Source of the DNA: a virus
Reading direction: 5' to 3' (one strand)
DNA: 29,312 nucleotides
Virus record (IMG/VR): IMGVR_UViG_3300035162_001131
Location: 1-29,312 of that record
The notes beneath the pieces are model-generated. The model did no database searches, was not told where the DNA came from, and saw nothing but the letters and a program-made list of their open reading frames with translations. Within the stretch, counting starts at the first letter, position 1; every line of letters begins with the position of its first letter. The position numbers and the translations under genes were made by a program. This document shows positions 638 through 17,206 of the stretch, piece after piece.

Positions 638-1198
638 ATGAAGCAGAAAAGAATAATAGGATTAGACTGGTTAAGCATTGTAGCTAAACAGCATGATGAA
701 TGGGTGGAGATAGTAAATGGCTTTGGGGAGTTTGATTATGCAGAAGACATTGTACAAACAAGCTACGAGGCACTAATACGATATGCAAGACCAGATAAGA
801 TAATTAACAATAACAAGGTTAATCGGGGCTATATGTATTTCACATTACGTTCAATGTATTTTCAATATTACAACGCAAAGAAGAAAGTAATAAAGATAAT
901 GATTGATGATGATGATACTTTTTTACAGTTAGCAGATGAAACCGATTTAGAAGAACACGAAGCATACAATAAGATTTGTTTGCTAGTAGATGAACTATCA
1001 GAAGATTGGTCATGGTACGATAGGAAGCTATTTAAGATATACTCAGATACAGGATTAAGCGTACGTAAGATAGCAGCTGAAACAAACATAAGCTGGGTAA
1101 GTATATACAACACATTAAAAAACTGCAAAAACGAAGTGAGGGATAAATTAAACGAAGATTATTTAGATTACAAAAACAAAGATTATGACAAAATTTAA
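638..1198 (+). CDS. Sigma-70-family-like regulator (regions 2 and 4)
   Basis: 186 residues with the two-part layout of small alternative (ECF-type) sigma factors. Residues about 34-50 (YAEDIVQTSYEALIRYA) resemble region 2, which binds core polymerase and the -10 element. Residues about 125-172 resemble region 4: YDRKLFKIYSDTGLSVRKIA followed by ETNISWVSIYNTLK, a helix-turn-helix that reads the -35 element. Between them is an acidic linker with four consecutive Asp (about 90-93). It sits directly after the terminase and overlaps the next gene by 14 nt. I infer a role in transcribing late genes, supported only by a recurrent promoter-like motif elsewhere in the window. Similar small HTH proteins next to terL could instead be small terminase subunits, and that alternative is open. 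Confidence 0.6.
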   Translation: MKQKRIIGLDWLSIVAKQHDEWVEIVNGFGEFDYAEDIVQTSYEALIRYARPDKIINNNKVNRGYMYFTLRSMYFQYYNAKKKVIKIMIDDDDTFLQLADETDLEEHEAYNKICLLVDELSEDWSWYDRKLFKIYSDTGLSVRKIAAETNISWVSIYNTLKNCKNEVRDKLNEDYLDYKNKDYDKI

Positions 1199-1658: not shown

Positions 1659-1691
1659 TACAGTTTGACTGTTTTTTTATTGTTATAATAT
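1659..1691 (+). promoter_or_regulatory. Divergent copy of the recurrent late-gene start motif
   Basis: TACAGT at 1659-1664, then 14 nt, then ATTGT at 1679-1683, then TATAATAT and the ATG at 1692. The ATTGT block and all spacings match the four better copies at 10397, 11167, 11603 and 14477, but the upstream hexamer keeps only the ACA core of AACAAA. It lies directly after the terminators that close the previous unit, which is where a new promoter would be expected. Confidence 0.35.
1660..1678 (+). terminator. Short hairpin with T7 tract, second terminator-like element
   Basis: ACAGT (1660-1664), a TTG loop and ACTGT (1668-1672) run into seven T residues (1672-1678). The stem is only 5 bp, so alone it would be weak, but it stands in tandem behind the stronger hairpin at 1626-1657. 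It overlaps the promoter-like motif listed at 1659-1691. Confidence 0.4.
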
Positions 1692-2886: not shown

Positions 2887-3389
2887 ATAATACTAAAGAA
2901 TCTTTAGAGAAGTTCAGGAGGTTTGTTGCACAACAATCTAGAAGCAGACTATCTAAGGCTGGTAAGAACGATTCTAAGGGACTTTATAAGAAACTTGATG
3001 GAGTTTTAAAGGTTAGCCCTAATTCGTTTCAATTAAGCTGGGATTTAGGATATGGTGAATTTATAGATAAAGGGGTAAGTGGAACTAAAAAAAAATACAA
3101 CACTCCCTATAGCTACAAAGATAAGATGCCTCCAATTAAACCACTAGCTGATTGGGCAAAAAGAAAAGCAATTAGGTTAAGAGATGATAAAGGAAGGTTT
3201 CAAAAAGGAAATTATAAAACAATAGGATTTTTAATAGCAAGAAGCATACAGAAAAAAGGTTTAAAGCCTAGCCTATTTTTTACTAAGCCTTTTGAACAAG
3301 GGTTTAAAAAGCTACCAGATGAGCTACTAGAGGCATACGGATTAGATGTTGAAGAGTTCTTAAAATATACACTTAAACAACAAAGATAA
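2880..3389 (+). CDS. HK97 gp10-like head-tail connector/neck protein
   Basis: 169 residues, strongly basic. It starts with a helical segment (residues 5-25) and contains LGYGEFIDKGVSGTKKK near residue 56, the YGxFIDxG-type signature of gp10/neck proteins. A later block, GLKPSLFFTKPFEQGFKKLP, matches the RPxPFxxPA-like end of that family. These proteins sit at the head-tail junction and help attach finished tails. The gene is squeezed between overlapping neighbours: 7 nt with the previous gene and 1 nt (TAATG) with the next. The family call is reasonably good. Confidence 0.7.
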   Translation: MLNNTKESLEKFRRFVAQQSRSRLSKAGKNDSKGLYKKLDGVLKVSPNSFQLSWDLGYGEFIDKGVSGTKKKYNTPYSYKDKMPPIKPLADWAKRKAIRLRDDKGRFQKGNYKTIGFLIARSIQKKGLKPSLFFTKPFEQGFKKLPDELLEAYGLDVEEFLKYTLKQQR

Positions 3390-4907: not shown

Positions 4908-5900
4908 ATGGCTTTAAAAAGTGTTACAATAAATATATATATATACTCGGGAACGGAAGGAGTTTATTCTTCATCTGATTTAAAGTACACAATATCTAAA
5001 GACAGGATAAGCAGTAATAATAATATTGTTATAGAAATTGCTAACCTTGTTAGAGATTATTTAGATACCTCTTTTAATGATGATTATTTAGGTTCTGCAA
5101 AATGGGTTACAGTTTCAAAAACTTTATTTGATTCTGAAACAGGTTTAGAATATACTGGCGATAGAAGCCCTGTAACGGCTAATTATCTTGCGCTAGATGG
5201 TTATGGTTACTTTGAAGATTCAATTAACCCACAACTAAGCACAGCTGCTTTATATACGTCTAACAATATGTATTTGCCAGAGGGAACTGCTGGTAAGTTT
5301 CCAATCTTTGCTGAAGGGGTTGGTAAAGTTATTATTGATTCAGCTACAACGCAAATAACAGACAGCGGTAACTCAGGGCAAAAAATACAGTACGTTACAA
5401 TTCCAGCAAATAGTTCTTCAATTAAGATTTATGCAATAGATGATAGTACACTTTTAAAAACAGTTACTGTTACAAATGTATGCGAGCCTAAGTACACCCC
5501 TTATAAAATTACATTCTTAAATAAGCTGGGTGCATTACAAGACTTGTGGTGTTTTAAAAAGACTACCGAAGCTCTTAATGTTACTGATGAAATGTACAGA
5601 CGTAATAATATAAATACCTCTAGCTTATCCTACAATCTTTATTCAGGTCAACAACAAAGGCAAAATGTAAATGCTACAACCAGTATTGTTTTAAATACTG
5701 GATATGTAAAAGAAGATTTTAATAGTGCAATCGAAGAACTTTTTTTATCTGAAAACGCTTGGATTCTTTTTGAAGGAAACACTTTGCCAGTAATGGTAAA
5801 AAACAAATCATACACAACTAAAACTGTTTTAAATGATAAGCTAATAAATCATACTATAAACTTTGATTTTGCATTTAACAAGATAAATAATGTACGTTAA
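4908..5900 (+). CDS. Tail tip / baseplate protein (first)
   Basis: 330 residues, beta-rich, with no signal peptide. Recognisable blocks are IVIEIANLVRDYL (about residues 40-52) and EPKYTPYKITFLNKLGALQD with a following Trp-Cys-Phe (about residues 195-215). The second is a block I recall from conserved proteins encoded next to the tape measure in Bacteroidetes phages. I infer a structural role at the distal tail, possibly like Dit-type proteins, but no Dit motif is provable by eye. The start follows an A-rich stretch (TATAAAAAATG), typical of flavobacterial initiation. The stop overlaps the start of the next gene by one base. Confidence 0.55.
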   Translation: MALKSVTINIYIYSGTEGVYSSSDLKYTISKDRISSNNNIVIEIANLVRDYLDTSFNDDYLGSAKWVTVSKTLFDSETGLEYTGDRSPVTANYLALDGYGYFEDSINPQLSTAALYTSNNMYLPEGTAGKFPIFAEGVGKVIIDSATTQITDSGNSGQKIQYVTIPANSSSIKIYAIDDSTLLKTVTVTNVCEPKYTPYKITFLNKLGALQDLWCFKKTTEALNVTDEMYRRNNINTSSLSYNLYSGQQQRQNVNATTSIVLNTGYVKEDFNSAIEELFLSENAWILFEGNTLPVMVKNKSYTTKTVLNDKLINHTINFDFAFNKINNVR

Positions 5901-10396: not shown

Positions 10397-10427
10397 AACA
10401 AAAAAGGTAAAAAAGTATTGTTCTATT
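10397..10427 (+). promoter_or_regulatory. Recurrent start motif AACAAA-N14-ATTGT before the protease gene
   Basis: AACAAA at 10397-10402, then 14 nt, ATTGT at 10417-10421, then TCTATT and ATG at 10428. The same two boxes with the same spacing occur before three other late genes. It lies in the 92-bp divergent region, right of the candidate operator, and would start the head gene unit. Promoter function is inferred. Confidence 0.45.
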
Positions 10428-11021
10428 ATGGACATAGTAGAATTATTTATAGACGAAGAAGATAAAATTTCTGGAATAGAGGCTGTATCGTTAGTTGAAT
10501 CAGGTGCAATAGAAAGCGACTTTATCGCTTTAAAGAACCAAGAGTTCAAGTTTGCAGAAGTGAACAAAGAGAAGCGAATCCTTATGGGCGCAGCTCTAAT
10601 TCCCTCTAAGCCAATTTATCGTATGAACAAAGATAATGAGTATTACATCTACTTTTCAAAAGAAACGGTACGTAAGGCTTCTGAACTATTCTTTATACGT
10701 GGCAATCAAAACAACTCAACACTAGAACATCAAACGCCCTTGACAGGATTAACTGCGGTTGAAAGTTGGATTGTGGAAGATGAGAAAGACAAGACAAGAT
10801 TTTACGGTTTAGATGTACCTATAGGTACTTGGATGCTTTCAATGAAAGTTTTAAACGATGATGTATGGAATAATTACGTGAAAACTGGAAAGGTAAAAGG
10901 ATTTTCTATTGAAGGCTATTTTGCTGACAAACTAGAAAGACCTAACGAACCTATTAAGCAATCAGCTGAATTAGAAGCAGAACAATTATTGTCAAAATTA
11001 AAAGATTTATTTAATGAGTGA
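10428..11021 (+). CDS. Prohead protease, XkdF-like serine protease
   Basis: 197 residues. The N-terminus has the internal 'GIEAVSLVESGAIESDF' self-processing-like segment seen in XkdF-type proteins. The protease core runs from about 45 to 165: MGAALIPSKPIYR, then LEHQTPLTG with candidate catalytic His101, VESWIVEDEKDKT, then GTWMLSMKV and VKGFSIEGYF with the candidate nucleophile Ser160. This matches the S78-like fold of phage maturation proteases, which cleave scaffold and capsid proteins inside the prohead. The following genes (acidic scaffold-like, decoration-like, capsid) are natural substrates. The last bases overlap the next small gene by 8 nt. Confidence 0.8.
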   Translation: MDIVELFIDEEDKISGIEAVSLVESGAIESDFIALKNQEFKFAEVNKEKRILMGAALIPSKPIYRMNKDNEYYIYFSKETVRKASELFFIRGNQNNSTLEHQTPLTGLTAVESWIVEDEKDKTRFYGLDVPIGTWMLSMKVLNDDVWNNYVKTGKVKGFSIEGYFADKLERPNEPIKQSAELEAEQLLSKLKDLFNE

Positions 11022-11160
11022 ATTTAATAAATACGCACCAAGCCCTAAAAACGATAAGCGCGCTTGTATTTGCAAAGATGGAAAGACTTATTCCAGAAAG
11101 TGCTGTGATGGTAGCTTTCAAGCTCAAGGCATTGGCAACATAACTAAAGACCCTTCTTGA
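11014..11160 (+). CDS. Small Cys-rich protein (CxC...CCDGS motif)
   Basis: 48 residues, starting inside the protease gene (8-nt overlap). The centre reads RACICKDGKTYSRKCCDGSF and continues QAQGIGNI. Four cysteines in CxC and CC arrangement could bind a metal or form disulfides. From memory, the 'TYSxxCCDGSxxAQGIGNI' phrase recurs in small or C-terminal segments of flavobacterial phage proteins, so it is a real conserved module, but I know of no function. The reading frame fills the gap after the protease without waste. Confidence 0.65.
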   Translation: MSEFNKYAPSPKNDKRACICKDGKTYSRKCCDGSFQAQGIGNITKDPS

Positions 11161-11166
11161 AAATAT

Positions 11167-11197
11167 AACAAACAAACCTAAAAACCATTGTAATAAT
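11167..11197 (+). promoter_or_regulatory. Recurrent start motif AACAAA-N14-ATTGT
   Basis: AACAAA at 11167-11172, 14 nt, ATTGT at 11187-11191, AATAAT, ATG at 11198. From ATTGT to the first codons (ATTGTAATAATATGAAA, 17 nt) it is identical to the copy at 11623-11639 before a non-homologous gene. Confidence 0.5.
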
Positions 11198-11596
11198 ATG
11201 AAACCAGACGTACAAAGAATATTCAACAAGTTAGCTAAAGAGAAAGAAAACAACATCGAGGTAAACCTTGAAAAAGTAGAGTTGGCAAGAAAGCCACAAA
11301 GCATACTAAAAGATATTGAAAAAGTGGATAGTGCTATAAATAAGCAAAAATCCAAAATAGACAAAGCTTATTTACAATATTTAAAAGTTTGGAAAGAATG
11401 GGATTCGTTTCTACAAGAATCAGATGATAAACTCACGAAGCTAAGATATACAGATATAAAGGAAGTTGGAAAACAACTAGAAGATTTAGGTGTAAAACCA
11501 AGTTCTGTACCTGACTACTCTAAAGCAAGTGATATTGCTAATAAAGCTTTAAATGACATTGACGGTCTTAAAAAAATGTACAAAAGACCAGAGTAA
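11198..11596 (+). CDS. Coiled-coil hypothetical protein in head module
   Basis: 132 residues, highly charged and mostly helical. Lys/Glu-rich heptad-like segments run from about 5 to 75 (KLAKEKENNIEVNLEKVELA, then ILKDIEKVDSAINKQKSKID). The C-terminal part has a short loop (LGVKPSSVPDYSKASD) and a final helix. It has no membrane segment. Its place between the protease and the acidic scaffold-like protein suggests a capsid assembly role, for example an internal or scaffold-associated protein. I recall similar-length coiled-coil genes at this spot in flavobacterial phages but cannot name a family. Confidence 0.6.
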   Translation: MKPDVQRIFNKLAKEKENNIEVNLEKVELARKPQSILKDIEKVDSAINKQKSKIDKAYLQYLKVWKEWDSFLQESDDKLTKLRYTDIKEVGKQLEDLGVKPSSVPDYSKASDIANKALNDIDGLKKMYKRPE

Positions 11597-11602
11597 AAAC
11601 AC

Positions 11603-11633
11603 AACAAAGTAAATACTAATTTATTGTAATAAT
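11603..11633 (+). promoter_or_regulatory. Recurrent start motif AACAAA-N14-ATTGT
   Basis: AACAAA at 11603-11608, 14 nt, ATTGT at 11623-11627, AATAAT, ATG at 11634. It shares a 17-nt perfect match with the copy before the gene at 11198, while the 14-nt spacer differs, which argues for selection on the two boxes. Confidence 0.5.
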
Positions 11634-12212
11634 ATGAAAGCAACCGAAATTTTAAACAAAGCAAAAGAACTTCTTTCCATAGAAACGGAAGAAGTCAAGT
11701 TAGCGCAAGCGACTTTAACCAACGGTACTGTTATCGAAGCAGAAGAATTTTCTGAAGGTAAAGAAGTATTTATTGTAACCGAAGATGAGCTAGTGCCGCT
11801 TCCTATTGGAGATTATGAGCTAGAAGATGGTCAAGTACTTATTGTAGCAGAAGAAGGTGTTATTGCATCTATTGGAGCAGCTGAAGAAGCACCAGAAGAA
11901 GAAGCACCAGCTGAAGAAGAAATAGAAGCAGCTGATGAAGAATTAGCATACGCTACTAAAGAAGATTTAGCAGAAGTGAAATCTATGATTGATGAAATCA
12001 AAGCAATGATTGAAAAGAAAGATGAATTATCAGTTGAAGAAACTGTGGAAAATATTGTAGATGAGTCTAAGGAAGAACTTTCTGAAGTTGAAAGAGTAAG
12101 CCACAACCCTGAAGCAAATGCAGATAAAGCGTTAAACCTTTATTCACAAAACCGAGGTACTACAACTTTAGATAGAGTACTCTCAAAAATAAACAACTTT
12201 AAAAACCAATAA
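11634..12212 (+). CDS. Acidic scaffold-like capsid assembly protein
   Basis: 192 residues, very acidic. Residues 25-80 form a beta-rich module (LTNGTVIEAEEFSEGKEVFI then VPLPIGDYELEDGQVLIVAE). Residues 83-105 are almost only Glu/Ala/Pro (EEAPEEEAPAEEEIEAADEE). Residues 108-150 form a charged coiled coil, and the C-terminus ends with TTLDRVLSKINNFK. Acidic, coiled-coil proteins between protease and capsid are typical scaffolds that shape the prohead and are then digested. The beta module followed by an acidic coil is familiar from flavobacterial phages. The next gene starts 3 nt after the stop. Confidence 0.6.
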   Translation: MKATEILNKAKELLSIETEEVKLAQATLTNGTVIEAEEFSEGKEVFIVTEDELVPLPIGDYELEDGQVLIVAEEGVIASIGAAEEAPEEEAPAEEEIEAADEELAYATKEDLAEVKSMIDEIKAMIEKKDELSVEETVENIVDESKEELSEVERVSHNPEANADKALNLYSQNRGTTTLDRVLSKINNFKNQ

Positions 12213-12215
12213 AAA

Positions 12216-12635
12216 ATGTCAACAAAAATTACAACAAGTAATGATGTGTTAAGAGCACGTTCTAAACAAATCACTTTAACAGATACTGGAAGCGTTTACG
12301 CAAACCAAGCTGGTGCAGAATTTAACATTGCAACCGATGCAAAAGTTATTACACTTCCTTTAATCTCAGCTGAGAATACTGGTATGGAATTTACTTTTCG
12401 TAACACAGGCGCAGACGGTAACAACACGATTACACTTTCTCCTGCTGCTGCTGATGCAATTGTAGGAACTATTGCTAACGCTGCTGCTGATTCAGTTGCA
12501 GGAGGTGTAGCAAATAAAGACATCGTAAATACAAAAGCTACTGCAAACCTAGGAGACTTTATAAAACTTACTGCATTAGCTCCTACAAAATGGGCAATTA
12601 CTGCTGGAGTTGGAATCTGGGCTTCTGAAGCATAA
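12216..12635 (+). CDS. Capsid decoration-like protein
   Basis: 139 residues, Ala/Thr/Gly-rich and predicted beta. The order ITLTDTGSVYANQAGA, VITLPLISAENTGMEFTFRN and GADGNNTITLSPAAADAIVG resembles the head fibre/decoration proteins that stick to the outside of capsids, and the C-terminus ends with a TKWAITAGVGIWASEA beta strand pair. Position right before the major capsid gene supports this. It could alternatively be a minor structural protein of the tail. The start is ATG preceded by an A-rich run (AATAAAAAATG), and a long hairpin follows the gene. Confidence 0.55.
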   Translation: MSTKITTSNDVLRARSKQITLTDTGSVYANQAGAEFNIATDAKVITLPLISAENTGMEFTFRNTGADGNNTITLSPAAADAIVGTIANAAADSVAGGVANKDIVNTKATANLGDFIKLTALAPTKWAITAGVGIWASEA

Positions 12636-12682
12636 TAATTAATTAAACCAGATGGGAAATAGAGTACCATCTAAAAACAGAA

Positions 12683-12718
12683 AAAGACTAACTGAGTGTT
12701 CAGACTCAATTAGCCTTT
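12683..12718 (+). terminator. Long imperfect hairpin after the decoration-like gene
   Basis: A 15-position stem with 13 pairs: 12683-12697 pairs with 12704-12718 around the 6-nt loop GTTCAG. The core is CTAACTGAGT against ACTCAATTAG. There is no T tract behind it, so it may be a weak terminator, a processing site or an mRNA end stabiliser. It starts 47 nt after the stop of the decoration-like gene. Confidence 0.45.
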
Positions 12719-12721
12719 GAA

Positions 12722-12752
12722 TTGTAAATGAATTTGCGTCCGTTTACTTTTC
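12722..12752 (+). promoter_or_regulatory. Candidate flavobacterial promoter for the capsid gene
   Basis: TTG at 12722-12724 and TACTTTTC at 12745-12752, spaced 20 nt, match the Bacteroidetes consensus TTG / TAnnTTTG except for the last base. It lies in the 193-bp gap before the major capsid gene. Two further hairpins follow it: TGTATGA/TCATACA (12756-12775) and AGCAAT/ATTGCT (12777-12796), the latter followed by a T7 run at 12804-12810, so the capsid mRNA would have a structured leader. Confidence 0.35.
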
Positions 12753-12828
12753 AAATGTATGAAATTTATCATACAGAGCAATATAATCTAATTGCTTGGT
12801 TAGTTTTTTTCGTCAAAACAAAACGAAA

Positions 12829-13758
12829 ATGAGTACAACTACATCAATTACAACAAGTTACCAAGGAGAAAAAGCGGCAGGTTATATATCTGCTAGTTTA
12901 TTATCTGGAGCAACTTTAGACAACGGTTTAATTACTGTAAAACCAAACATTAAATTTAAAGAGATTCTTAAAAAAGTATCTTCTGATGACATCGTGAAAA
13001 ACGCAAGCTGTGATTTTGACCCGACATCTACTTTAACATTAAGCGAAAGAACACTAGAACCTATTTATCAACAAGTGAATTTACAATTGTGTAAAAAAGA
13101 TTTCCAAAATGATTGGGATGCGATTTCTATGGGCTATTCAGCTCACGATTCACTACCTCCTTCATTTGCAGATTTCTTAATAGGTCATGTTGCAGCTAAA
13201 GTAGCTCAAAGAACTGAGCAATCAATTTGGAATGGAGCAGCTGCTTCAGATGGACAGTTTGCAGGATTCAAAGAATTAATGTTAGCTGATGCTGATGTAA
13301 CAGATATTGCTGCTGTTGGTGGTGGAATTACTGCTGCAAATGTAATTGCAGAATTAGGAAAGGTTGTAGATTCTATCAGTTCTACACTTTACACTTCTGA
13401 AGACATGTTAATTTATGTTTCTCAAAATGTTGCACGTTCTTACACAAGAGCGCTTGGTGGTTTCGTTGCAAACATTGGCGGTGCTGGTACAGATAACAAA
13501 GGTACACAATGGTACAATGGAGGCGGTCTTAGTTTTGATGGTGTAAAAATCGTTGTAGCAAATGGATTAGCTGACAACACAATTGTAGCAGCTGAAAAAA
13601 GCAACTTATATTTTGGCTGTGGCTTACTAAACGACACGCAAGAAGTTAAGGTTCTGGACATGAGCGATTTAGATGGCTCGCAGAATGTAAGGGTTGTTAT
13701 GAGATTTTCGGCAGCTGTGAACTACGGATTAGGAAGTGAAATAGTTCTTTATAGCTAA
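12829..13758 (+). CDS. Major capsid protein, HK97-fold-like
   Basis: 309 residues from the ATG at 12829; an upstream in-frame TTG at 12796 is less likely because it would overlap a hairpin and T tract. The N-terminal 35 residues (TTSITTSYQGEKAAGYISAS) are an extended arm. Recognisable segments are FKEILKKVSSDDIVKNASCD, LQLCKKDFQNDWDAISMGYS and PPSFADFLIGHVAAKVAQRT, then an 'SIWNGAAASDGQFAGFKEL' block that I associate with flavobacterial phage major capsids. The protein forms the icosahedral shell. It is flanked by hairpins on both sides, so it may be a separate, strongly expressed transcript. Confidence 0.75.
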   Translation: MSTTTSITTSYQGEKAAGYISASLLSGATLDNGLITVKPNIKFKEILKKVSSDDIVKNASCDFDPTSTLTLSERTLEPIYQQVNLQLCKKDFQNDWDAISMGYSAHDSLPPSFADFLIGHVAAKVAQRTEQSIWNGAAASDGQFAGFKELMLADADVTDIAAVGGGITAANVIAELGKVVDSISSTLYTSEDMLIYVSQNVARSYTRALGGFVANIGGAGTDNKGTQWYNGGGLSFDGVKIVVANGLADNTIVAAEKSNLYFGCGLLNDTQEVKVLDMSDLDGSQNVRVVMRFSAAVNYGLGSEIVLYS

Positions 13759-13786
13759 ACTACTTATAATCAAAATTAACCAAAGA

Positions 13787-13817
13787 GGGTAGGTGGTATA
13801 ACTGCCTACCCTTTTTT
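13787..13817 (+). terminator. Rho-independent terminator after the major capsid gene
   Basis: GGGTAGGTGGT (13787-13797) pairs with ACTGCCTACCC (13801-13811) around a 3-nt loop with two wobble pairs, followed by six T (13812-13817). This is a textbook intrinsic terminator 28 nt after the capsid stop codon. Confidence 0.85.
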
Positions 13818-13820
13818 AAT

Positions 13821-13850
13821 AACAAGTAATTAATAATCAATTAGTTACAT
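13821..13850 (+). promoter_or_regulatory. Possible variant of the recurrent start motif before the tail tube gene
   Basis: AACAAG at 13821-13826, 14 nt, then TTAGTTACAT at 13841-13850. The first box and spacing fit the recurrent motif; the second box is degenerate. It is 47 nt before the ATG instead of 31-33. It directly follows the terminator that ends at 13817. Confidence 0.2.
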
Positions 13851-13867
13851 AAAAAATTTTAACAATT

Positions 13868-14416
13868 ATGGCTTGTGATTTAACAAAAGGTCGAAAAGAA
13901 CCGTGTTCCGATTCCGTTGGGGGTCTTCGCAAAATCTATTTTACTGACTTTGGAGACTTAGGAACAGTAACTAAAACAGATGATGAAATAACGGATTTAT
14001 CAGGAACATTTACTGCTTTTGCTTATGAGCTTAAGGGTACATCTTCTTTTGAACAAGCAGTTACTTCATCTAGAGAAAACGGAACTACTTTCTTTGAACA
14101 AACGTTAAACGTTACTTTAAAGAAACTTACAAAAGAAGACCACAAAGAAATTAAATTACTGTGTTATAACAGACCGCATATTGCAGTTGAAACTAATAAC
14201 GGTGAAGTATTTCTTATGGGCTTAGAATATGGAAGCGAAGTAACTGGCGGTACAATTGTAACTGGGGCTGCAATGGGCGATTTAAGCGGTTATACGCTTA
14301 CATTTGTAGCTCAAGAAGTTGAACCAGCAAACTTTTTAGAAACTCCAACAGCAGCAGACCCATACGCAGGTATGGCAGCAGCTACTGTAACAATTACGCA
14401 GGGTACAAACTCTTAA
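13868..14416 (+). CDS. Major tail tube protein
   Basis: 182 residues. The N-terminus DLTKGRKEPCSDSVGGLRKI continues with YFTDFGDLGTVT, a signature I recall for tail tube proteins of flavobacterial phages. The middle has an amphipathic stretch (TFFEQTLNVTLKKLTKEDHK) and the C-terminal part VEPANFLETPTAADPY. The beta-rich pattern and a TGGTIVTGAAMGDLSGYTLT motif fit the tube fold that polymerises around the tape measure. It has its own terminators on both sides (13787-13817 and 14437-14463), consistent with high expression. It lies far from the tape measure gene, which is unusual. Confidence 0.7.
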   Translation: MACDLTKGRKEPCSDSVGGLRKIYFTDFGDLGTVTKTDDEITDLSGTFTAFAYELKGTSSFEQAVTSSRENGTTFFEQTLNVTLKKLTKEDHKEIKLLCYNRPHIAVETNNGEVFLMGLEYGSEVTGGTIVTGAAMGDLSGYTLTFVAQEVEPANFLETPTAADPYAGMAAATVTITQGTNS

Positions 14417-14436
14417 TAATTGACTACATTTTTAAT

Positions 14437-14463
14437 AAAGGGGGCTTAATTGCCCCTTTTTTT
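14437..14463 (+). terminator. Rho-independent terminator after the tail tube gene
   Basis: AAAGGGGGC (14437-14445) pairs with GCCCCTTTT (14452-14460) around a TTAATT loop, within a seven-T run (14457-14463). It is a strong intrinsic terminator 20 nt after the stop. Confidence 0.85.
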
Positions 14464-14476
14464 ATTGCATCCAATT

Positions 14477-14509
14477 AACAAAACGACCCTTTTTTTATTG
14501 TATATATAT
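14477..14509 (+). promoter_or_regulatory. Recurrent start motif AACAAA-N14-ATTGT
   Basis: AACAAA at 14477-14482, 14 nt, ATTGT at 14497-14501, ATATATAT, ATG at 14510. It lies directly after the tail tube terminator and would begin the portal unit. Confidence 0.45.
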
Positions 14510-14851
14510 ATGATAGTATTAGAAAGCTCAAATAGCGCTCAAACATTTAGTTTTATACCACGCTCCTACACTTCAGGAACTACTTACAATGTTATAATAA
14601 CAAACGAATCTACAAACACTCAAGTATCAAATTTTACTACTACTTCGTTTGTTGCTCAAGATTACTATTACAATTACACAAATACGTTTTCCCTTATTCA
14701 AGATGTTATGTACTTACTTGAAATTAAAGAAGGGGCTAATACAATTTATAAGGATAAAATCTTTTGCACTAATCAAGCGGTTTCTGCTTATAGTGTAAAC
14801 AATGGAACTTATACAGAACATAATATAGATGATGACTTTATAATATTATAA
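14510..14851 (+). CDS. Small structural protein preceding the portal
   Basis: 113 residues from ATG at 14510. A longer in-frame TTG start at 14450 would run through the tail tube terminator, so I reject it. The protein is beta-rich: MIVLESSNSAQTFSFIPRSY, then SGTTYNVIITNESTNTQV and a Tyr/Asn-rich centre. The last residues (HNIDDDFIIL) end 1 nt inside the portal gene. I recall short proteins with the same FxFIPRxY start next to flavobacterial portal or baseplate genes; a minor virion protein role is likely but unproven. Confidence 0.6.
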   Translation: MIVLESSNSAQTFSFIPRSYTSGTTYNVIITNESTNTQVSNFTTTSFVAQDYYYNYTNTFSLIQDVMYLLEIKEGANTIYKDKIFCTNQAVSAYSVNNGTYTEHNIDDDFIIL

Positions 14852-17108: not shown

Positions 17109-17206
17109 AGAAAAAATATAAGCCTAAACAGGAGAATGTAACAAAACTTACTAGATACCTAAAAAGGGAATATAATAAAAAAATAAAAATATACAAGTAT
17201 GTCTAA
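17096..17206 (+). CDS. Very small basic protein between connector and tail fibre
   Basis: 36 residues, MGTLKKKYKPKQENVTKLTR then a Lys/Tyr-rich end. About 40 percent of residues are Lys or Arg. It overlaps the connector gene by 13 nt and the tail fibre gene by 8 nt (ATGTCTAA), so it bridges both. The arrangement argues for a translated gene, but with such low complexity it could also be a translational coupling device without a functional product. No family recognised. Confidence 0.45.
   Translation: MGTLKKKYKPKQENVTKLTRYLKREYNKKIKIYKYV

Follow-up and report, generated by a model that had tools for sequence, protein, structure and literature searches.

A two-box signal of fixed spacing before particle-building genes of flavobacterial viruses, with a phage-encoded ECF-type sigma factor as its putative reader

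The two-part signal AACAAA-N14-ATTGT, found in the window (the whole 29,312-nt stretch of viral DNA analysed here), is common to a large family of flavobacterial viruses, in which it stands before particle-building genes. The best explanation, held with high confidence on comparative grounds, is that the copies are virion-gene promoters for a phage-encoded ECF-type sigma factor and yield mostly leaderless or near-leaderless mRNAs. In the proposed mechanism, AACAAA would serve as a -35-like box and, after a 14-nt spacer, ATTGT as a -10-like box in the extended context TTATTGTA. The promoter would be recognised by host core RNA polymerase together with the phage sigma factor encoded at 638-1198, and the virion and morphogenesis units would be switched on after this sigma is made. 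Because the ATG lies only 6-8 nt past the -10-like box, transcription is predicted to start at the ATG or 1-2 nt from it, and the resulting mRNAs in the window's clade would be leaderless or near-leaderless.

Four exact copies are present in the window, starting at 10397, 11167, 11603 and 14477, all in gaps and on the + strand, and the - strand holds no exact match to AACAAA-N14-ATTGT. Counted from the first A, the ATG follows at +31 in the first three and at +33 in the fourth, so that these four sites, which had been reported by a sequence-only reading of this DNA, were confirmed by the window scan. The first copy (10397..10421; AACAAA 10397-10402, ATTGT 10417-10421) precedes the head protease gene (ATG 10428), and its counterparts are conserved upstream of orthologous proteases. 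The second (11167..11191; AACAAA 11167-11172, ATTGT 11187-11191) precedes a gene without assigned function (ATG 11198), and related genes in three other loci (L020, L034 and L048) have the promoter with the ATG at +40. The third (11603..11627; AACAAA 11603-11608, ATTGT 11623-11627) precedes the gene starting at 11634, whose product weakly matched the C-terminal portion of a protease-containing family and whose orthologues have the ATG at +31, +32 or +44. The fourth (14477..14501; AACAAA 14477-14482, ATTGT 14497-14501) precedes a gene without assigned function just before the portal gene (ATG 14510); the ATG of its orthologues is at +31/32, or at +39-41 in the freshwater clade. The degenerate copy noticed previously is also present (1659..1683, + strand; TACAGT 1659-1664, ATTGT 1679-1683, spacer 14), 33 nt before the ATG of a gene without assigned function at 1692, and it is the orthologue of a sharper TACAA(A/T)-N14-ATTGT with the ATG at +31 in six other records.

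The claim that two copies lie straight after terminators held for the 14477 copy, which is found just downstream of an intrinsic-terminator-like hairpin with a T-run (14437..14460, + strand, terminator scan). For the 1659 copy, a hairpin-like GGGCT...AGCCCTTTT is visible by eye and obtained no score in the terminator scan. In addition, the segment 17139-17198 upstream of the tail gene at 17199 resembles a decayed promoter copy (TAATAAAAAAATAAAAATATACAAGTATG), and the promoter of this tail gene is intact or nearly so in the relatives L006, G001 and G007.

Judged from gene content, the motif-bearing genes would form a late class. The capsid gene, the 13868 gene and the portal gene have no promoter copy of their own and would depend on read-through or on another promoter. 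A gap of about 190 nt (12636-12828) precedes the major capsid gene and contains a 15-pair hairpin (12683-12718) that is terminator-like on the - strand; in G003-G005, the 50 nt upstream of the capsid gene begin inside the preceding gene instead.

In the window by itself, the evidence for the motif is suggestive. Among 3000 first-order Markov sequences generated from the window, none held four copies, 2720 held none, and the maximum of three was reached once, while the spacings from 8 to 20 other than 14 gave 0-1 matches each in the window. With two mismatches allowed, no enrichment was observed in the window (34 seen, 35 expected), so the signal consists of the exact core and its placement, and the case rests on these and on the relatives.

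A search with the major capsid protein (12829-13758) gave several hundred stretches of viral contigs, and 80 loci were retained from these as relatives. Further capsid matches were one Flavobacteriaceae MAG contig and the cultured Nonlabens phages P12024S/L (33% identity), and these point to flavobacteria as the hosts. In the 81 loci (747 kb) used for counting, spacing 14 gave 125 forward sites, which come from related loci and are hence non-independent (82 distinct 31-mers), against one reverse site, and none of the other spacings between 8 and 20 gave more than 8; comparison thus establishes two boxes at a fixed spacing. The matrix built from the 82 31-mers reads AT-AACAAA-N12-TT-ATTGT-A-(A/T)(A/T)-A-n-T-ATG. 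The sequence-only reading had proposed a matrix scan of the genome and related phages and a test against shuffled sequence, and both came out in favour of the motif: in the window and nine near-complete relatives, matrix sites were nearly all on the coding strand and upstream of genes, with 0-1 per shuffled sequence. When orthologue groups were counted with a general motif form (gap 14), matches were found in 49 of 51 upstreams of the protease gene, 53 of 63 of the 14510-type gene, 44 of 60 of the 11634-type gene and 18 of 33 of the 1692-type gene. No match was found in the upstreams of the capsid and 13868 genes, and the four matches before portal genes were 80-84 nt away.

Of the 116 distinct sites across the loci, 92 had the ATG at +31-33, 15 at +40-56 and one at +77; the other eight lacked a suitable ORF, and some of the eight were chance matches inside genes. 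In several copies, ATA stands at +31 and the true ATG 13-14 nt downstream, with both boxes intact. In the freshwater clade, the ATG follows at +39-44 after an A-rich leader at nearly every site, with the exception of G014, where the protease ATG stays at +31. In many genomes, a leader of about 20 nt precedes a small gene of 76-83 aa (sites at L131 15164, L148 9194, L161 4604 and L164 16237); the promoter is present, and the leader holds a short palindrome, for example ATTGAATAATCAAT or AATTAATTAATTAATT.

These distances bear on the reading in which the motif is part of the mRNA, as a translation-initiation element, and transcription comes from an upstream promoter. The near-fixed ATG in most copies would fit such an element, as would the lack of Shine-Dalgarno sites in Bacteroidota and their preference for adenines upstream of the start (PMC6847099). 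However, a ribosome signal would fix the distance to the ATG, and what is constant here is the box-to-box spacing of 14, while the ATG distance varies (+31-33, +39-44, +50-56) across whole clades and gene families and even between orthologues, the boxes are kept where ATA replaces ATG, and the -10-like box drifts by clade. Comparison thus establishes that the ATG distance is independent of the boxes, which favours a promoter, and the translation-element reading was rejected as highly improbable. The suggestion that the mRNAs are leaderless stood for most copies, with the start position predicted from an ATG 6-8 nt past the second box, and did not stand for some copies with a longer leader. In F. 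psychrophilum, 5.5% of mRNAs are leaderless (PMC9723704), and in F. johnsoniae, 87% of leaders are longer than 10 nt (PMC6847099); for such hosts, a regulon of mostly leaderless mRNAs would thus be out of the ordinary.

The second box drifts between clades, a pattern established by the comparison: besides ATTGT, it reads ATTAT in G003 and the freshwater clade, GTTAT in G004 (sigma 34% identical) and CGTTA in P12024S, and ACAA and the spacing of 14 are retained across these variants. The weakest case is G005, whose sites (AACAAT-N13-ATTAC) were picked out by eye in the upstream regions of orthologues. When the promoters of the protease and 14510-type genes, which are unrelated, were compared within each genome, the -10 pentamer agreed in 41/45 cases (permutation mean 25.5, maximum 34). 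Agreement was weaker for pairs with the 11634-type promoter, at 29/40 (mean 24.1, maximum 30) and 36/45 (mean 31.2, maximum 36), where the permutation maximum was not exceeded. Shared ancestry accounts for part of this co-drift, and recognition by the phage sigma is supported by it, not proven. In the freshwater sigmas, the C-terminal stretch that is likely the -35 recognition helix reads ISLISIFHSIKNYK versus ISWVSIFN(S/T)LKN in the marine ones (alignment A2), and AACAAT is more frequent as the first box of the freshwater clade.

In the cultured phage P12024S, AACAAA-N14-CGTTA occurs five times forward and never in reverse, with the ATG at +32/33 where a gene follows, and its gp33 is annotated with a sigma-70 region 2. 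At 2980-3031 and 5365-5412 of this genome (L097), the -35 box overlaps or adjoins a host-like TATATTTG on the opposite strand, and these host-like elements precede the small leftward genes gp04 and gp07, an arrangement that suggests overlapping divergent host and phage promoters.

The putative reader of the promoter is a protein of 186 aa encoded at 638..1198 on the + strand, which is ECF-like as judged by profile and predicted fold. A homologue was found in all nine near-complete relatives, which had been chosen by capsid and not by sigma; in G010-G012, records that are fragments of 17-23 kb, no sigma was found. The TIGR02937 (sigma70-ECF) profile was matched by 33/33 aligned homologues (best 4.8e-13), the window protein itself scoring 34.4 bits, under the curated cut-off of 42.9, and Pfam Sigma70_r2 was matched by only 11/24 homologues. 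A PDB sequence search with the sigma profile gave weak matches only, so the folds had to be compared. In the AlphaFold model (mean pLDDT 82, pTM 0.43), a linker of low confidence connects two helical domains, whose relative orientation is unreliable; the model's best PDB fold matches were ECF sigmas in initiation complexes (6dv9, 5zx2 and 6jbq), and its C-terminal domain matched sigmaE region 4 on -35 DNA (2h27) with a TM of 0.76. The predicted architecture is that of ECF sigmas: it comprises regions 2 and 4, lacks regions 1.1 and 3, and has a length within their range of about 160-200 aa. The sites likewise have the ECF promoter layout of an AAC-type -35, a short -10 and a near-fixed spacing, both in the window and in P12024S. 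The ECF-like promoter proposed by the sequence-only reading is thus supported by the invariant spacing, the variable ATG distance, the ECF-like 638-1198 protein and the change of the second box along with the sigma clade.

A cognate anti-sigma gene beside an ECF sigma gene is common, not universal. The gene at 1185-1601 overlaps the 3' end of the sigma gene and encodes a Cys-rich protein (CGC...C...CNGC); it is present in 86/89 sigma-holding loci, nearly always adjoining sigma. As an anti-sigma candidate it gained no support, since it gave no convincing Pfam match. P12024S gp35 (L097 21280-21639) has a similar layout (GLGD...CxxC...CxxC), and its gene, which has a promoter copy of its own, lies two genes before terL, a position that rather hints at a packaging role.

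Two further readings accept a promoter or its neighbourhood and change the protein that binds it. An ECF sigma of the host, or some other factor of the host, might read the promoter, and the phage sigma-like protein would then have a different role; flavobacteria have several ECF sigmas (seven in F. psychrophilum, where the SM6 motif has a CGT -10 box; PMC9723704), and the phage protein falls below the curated sigma cut-offs. Against this, the sigma gene is retained in every near-complete relative, and the -10 box varies along with the phage sigma between clades, for which differences between hosts are a possible alternative cause; we regard this reading as unlikely. The boxes might also bind an activator or repressor of the phage at a site that overlaps a host promoter of the ordinary kind, since two boxes at fixed spacing could be the site of a protein dimer, and a conserved Cys-rich gene adjoins the sigma gene. 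However, the boxes are neither inverted nor direct repeats of each other, and the ATG stands at the start position expected if the second box is a -10. SigmaA promoters of flavobacterial hosts are marked by TAHHTTTG (PMC6847099), and this -7 element (TAnnTTTG/TAHHTTTG) is missing from the matrix consensus and from the window sites, which makes an ordinary host promoter a rejected candidate and the activator or repressor reading very unlikely. Virion-gene promoters read by the phage ECF-type sigma thus remain the preferred explanation.

It is reasonably likely that a widespread family of marine and freshwater Bacteroidota phages has a dedicated virion regulon under an ECF sigma, leaderless by design in the marine clade and with a short A-rich leader in the freshwater one. 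If true, the two clades would form a natural experiment on the change from one mode of translation initiation to the other, and matched orthologues with and without a leader could be used to ask how initiation on phage mRNA works when ribosomes are independent of Shine-Dalgarno sites. Little work has been done on the promoters and sigma factors of Bacteroidota phages, and the present analysis provides a promoter code that can be recognised, a candidate for the cognate sigma, and several sigma/-10 pairs that diverged together. These predictions are directly testable in the cultured relative P12024S on Persicivirga sp. IMCC12024.

Phage-encoded sigmas with promoters of their own are of a known kind, and their ECF-type, mostly leaderless version in Bacteroidota was not found described: the open-licence literature gave no flavobacterial phage promoters or sigmas of ECF type with the ATG abutting the -10, and the open-access papers searched gave no promoter description for P12024S/L. 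Phage sigmas with dedicated promoters include T4 gp55 and SPO1 gp28 and gp33/34, and the present case is alike in that a (here putative) phage sigma redirects host RNA polymerase to virion-gene promoters. T4 late promoters are limited to a -10-like box and depend on the sliding clamp, whereas a two-box ECF-type promoter with mostly leaderless predicted starts, in Bacteroidota, is proposed here. The Nonlabens phages P12024S/L (Inhavirus) are alike in capsid, two-box motif, ATG distance and sigma annotation, and differ in having CGTTA, not ATTGT, as the -10. The ECF promoters of the SM6 motif in F. psychrophilum, putative promoters with a CGT -10 core (PMC9723704), are similar in the two-region sigma, the two boxes and a short -10 that recalls the CGTTA of P12024S; here, in contrast, the sigma is phage-encoded, the -10 of the window is ATTGT, the ATG abuts the -10, and an anti-sigma was not identified. 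In Deinococcus-Thermus, as reported in PMC12340547, a -10 region directly before the ORF, giving leaderless mRNAs, is a common mode of expression; the placement of the -10 immediately before the ORF is alike, whereas here it would serve a phage regulon in hosts that rarely make leaderless mRNAs.
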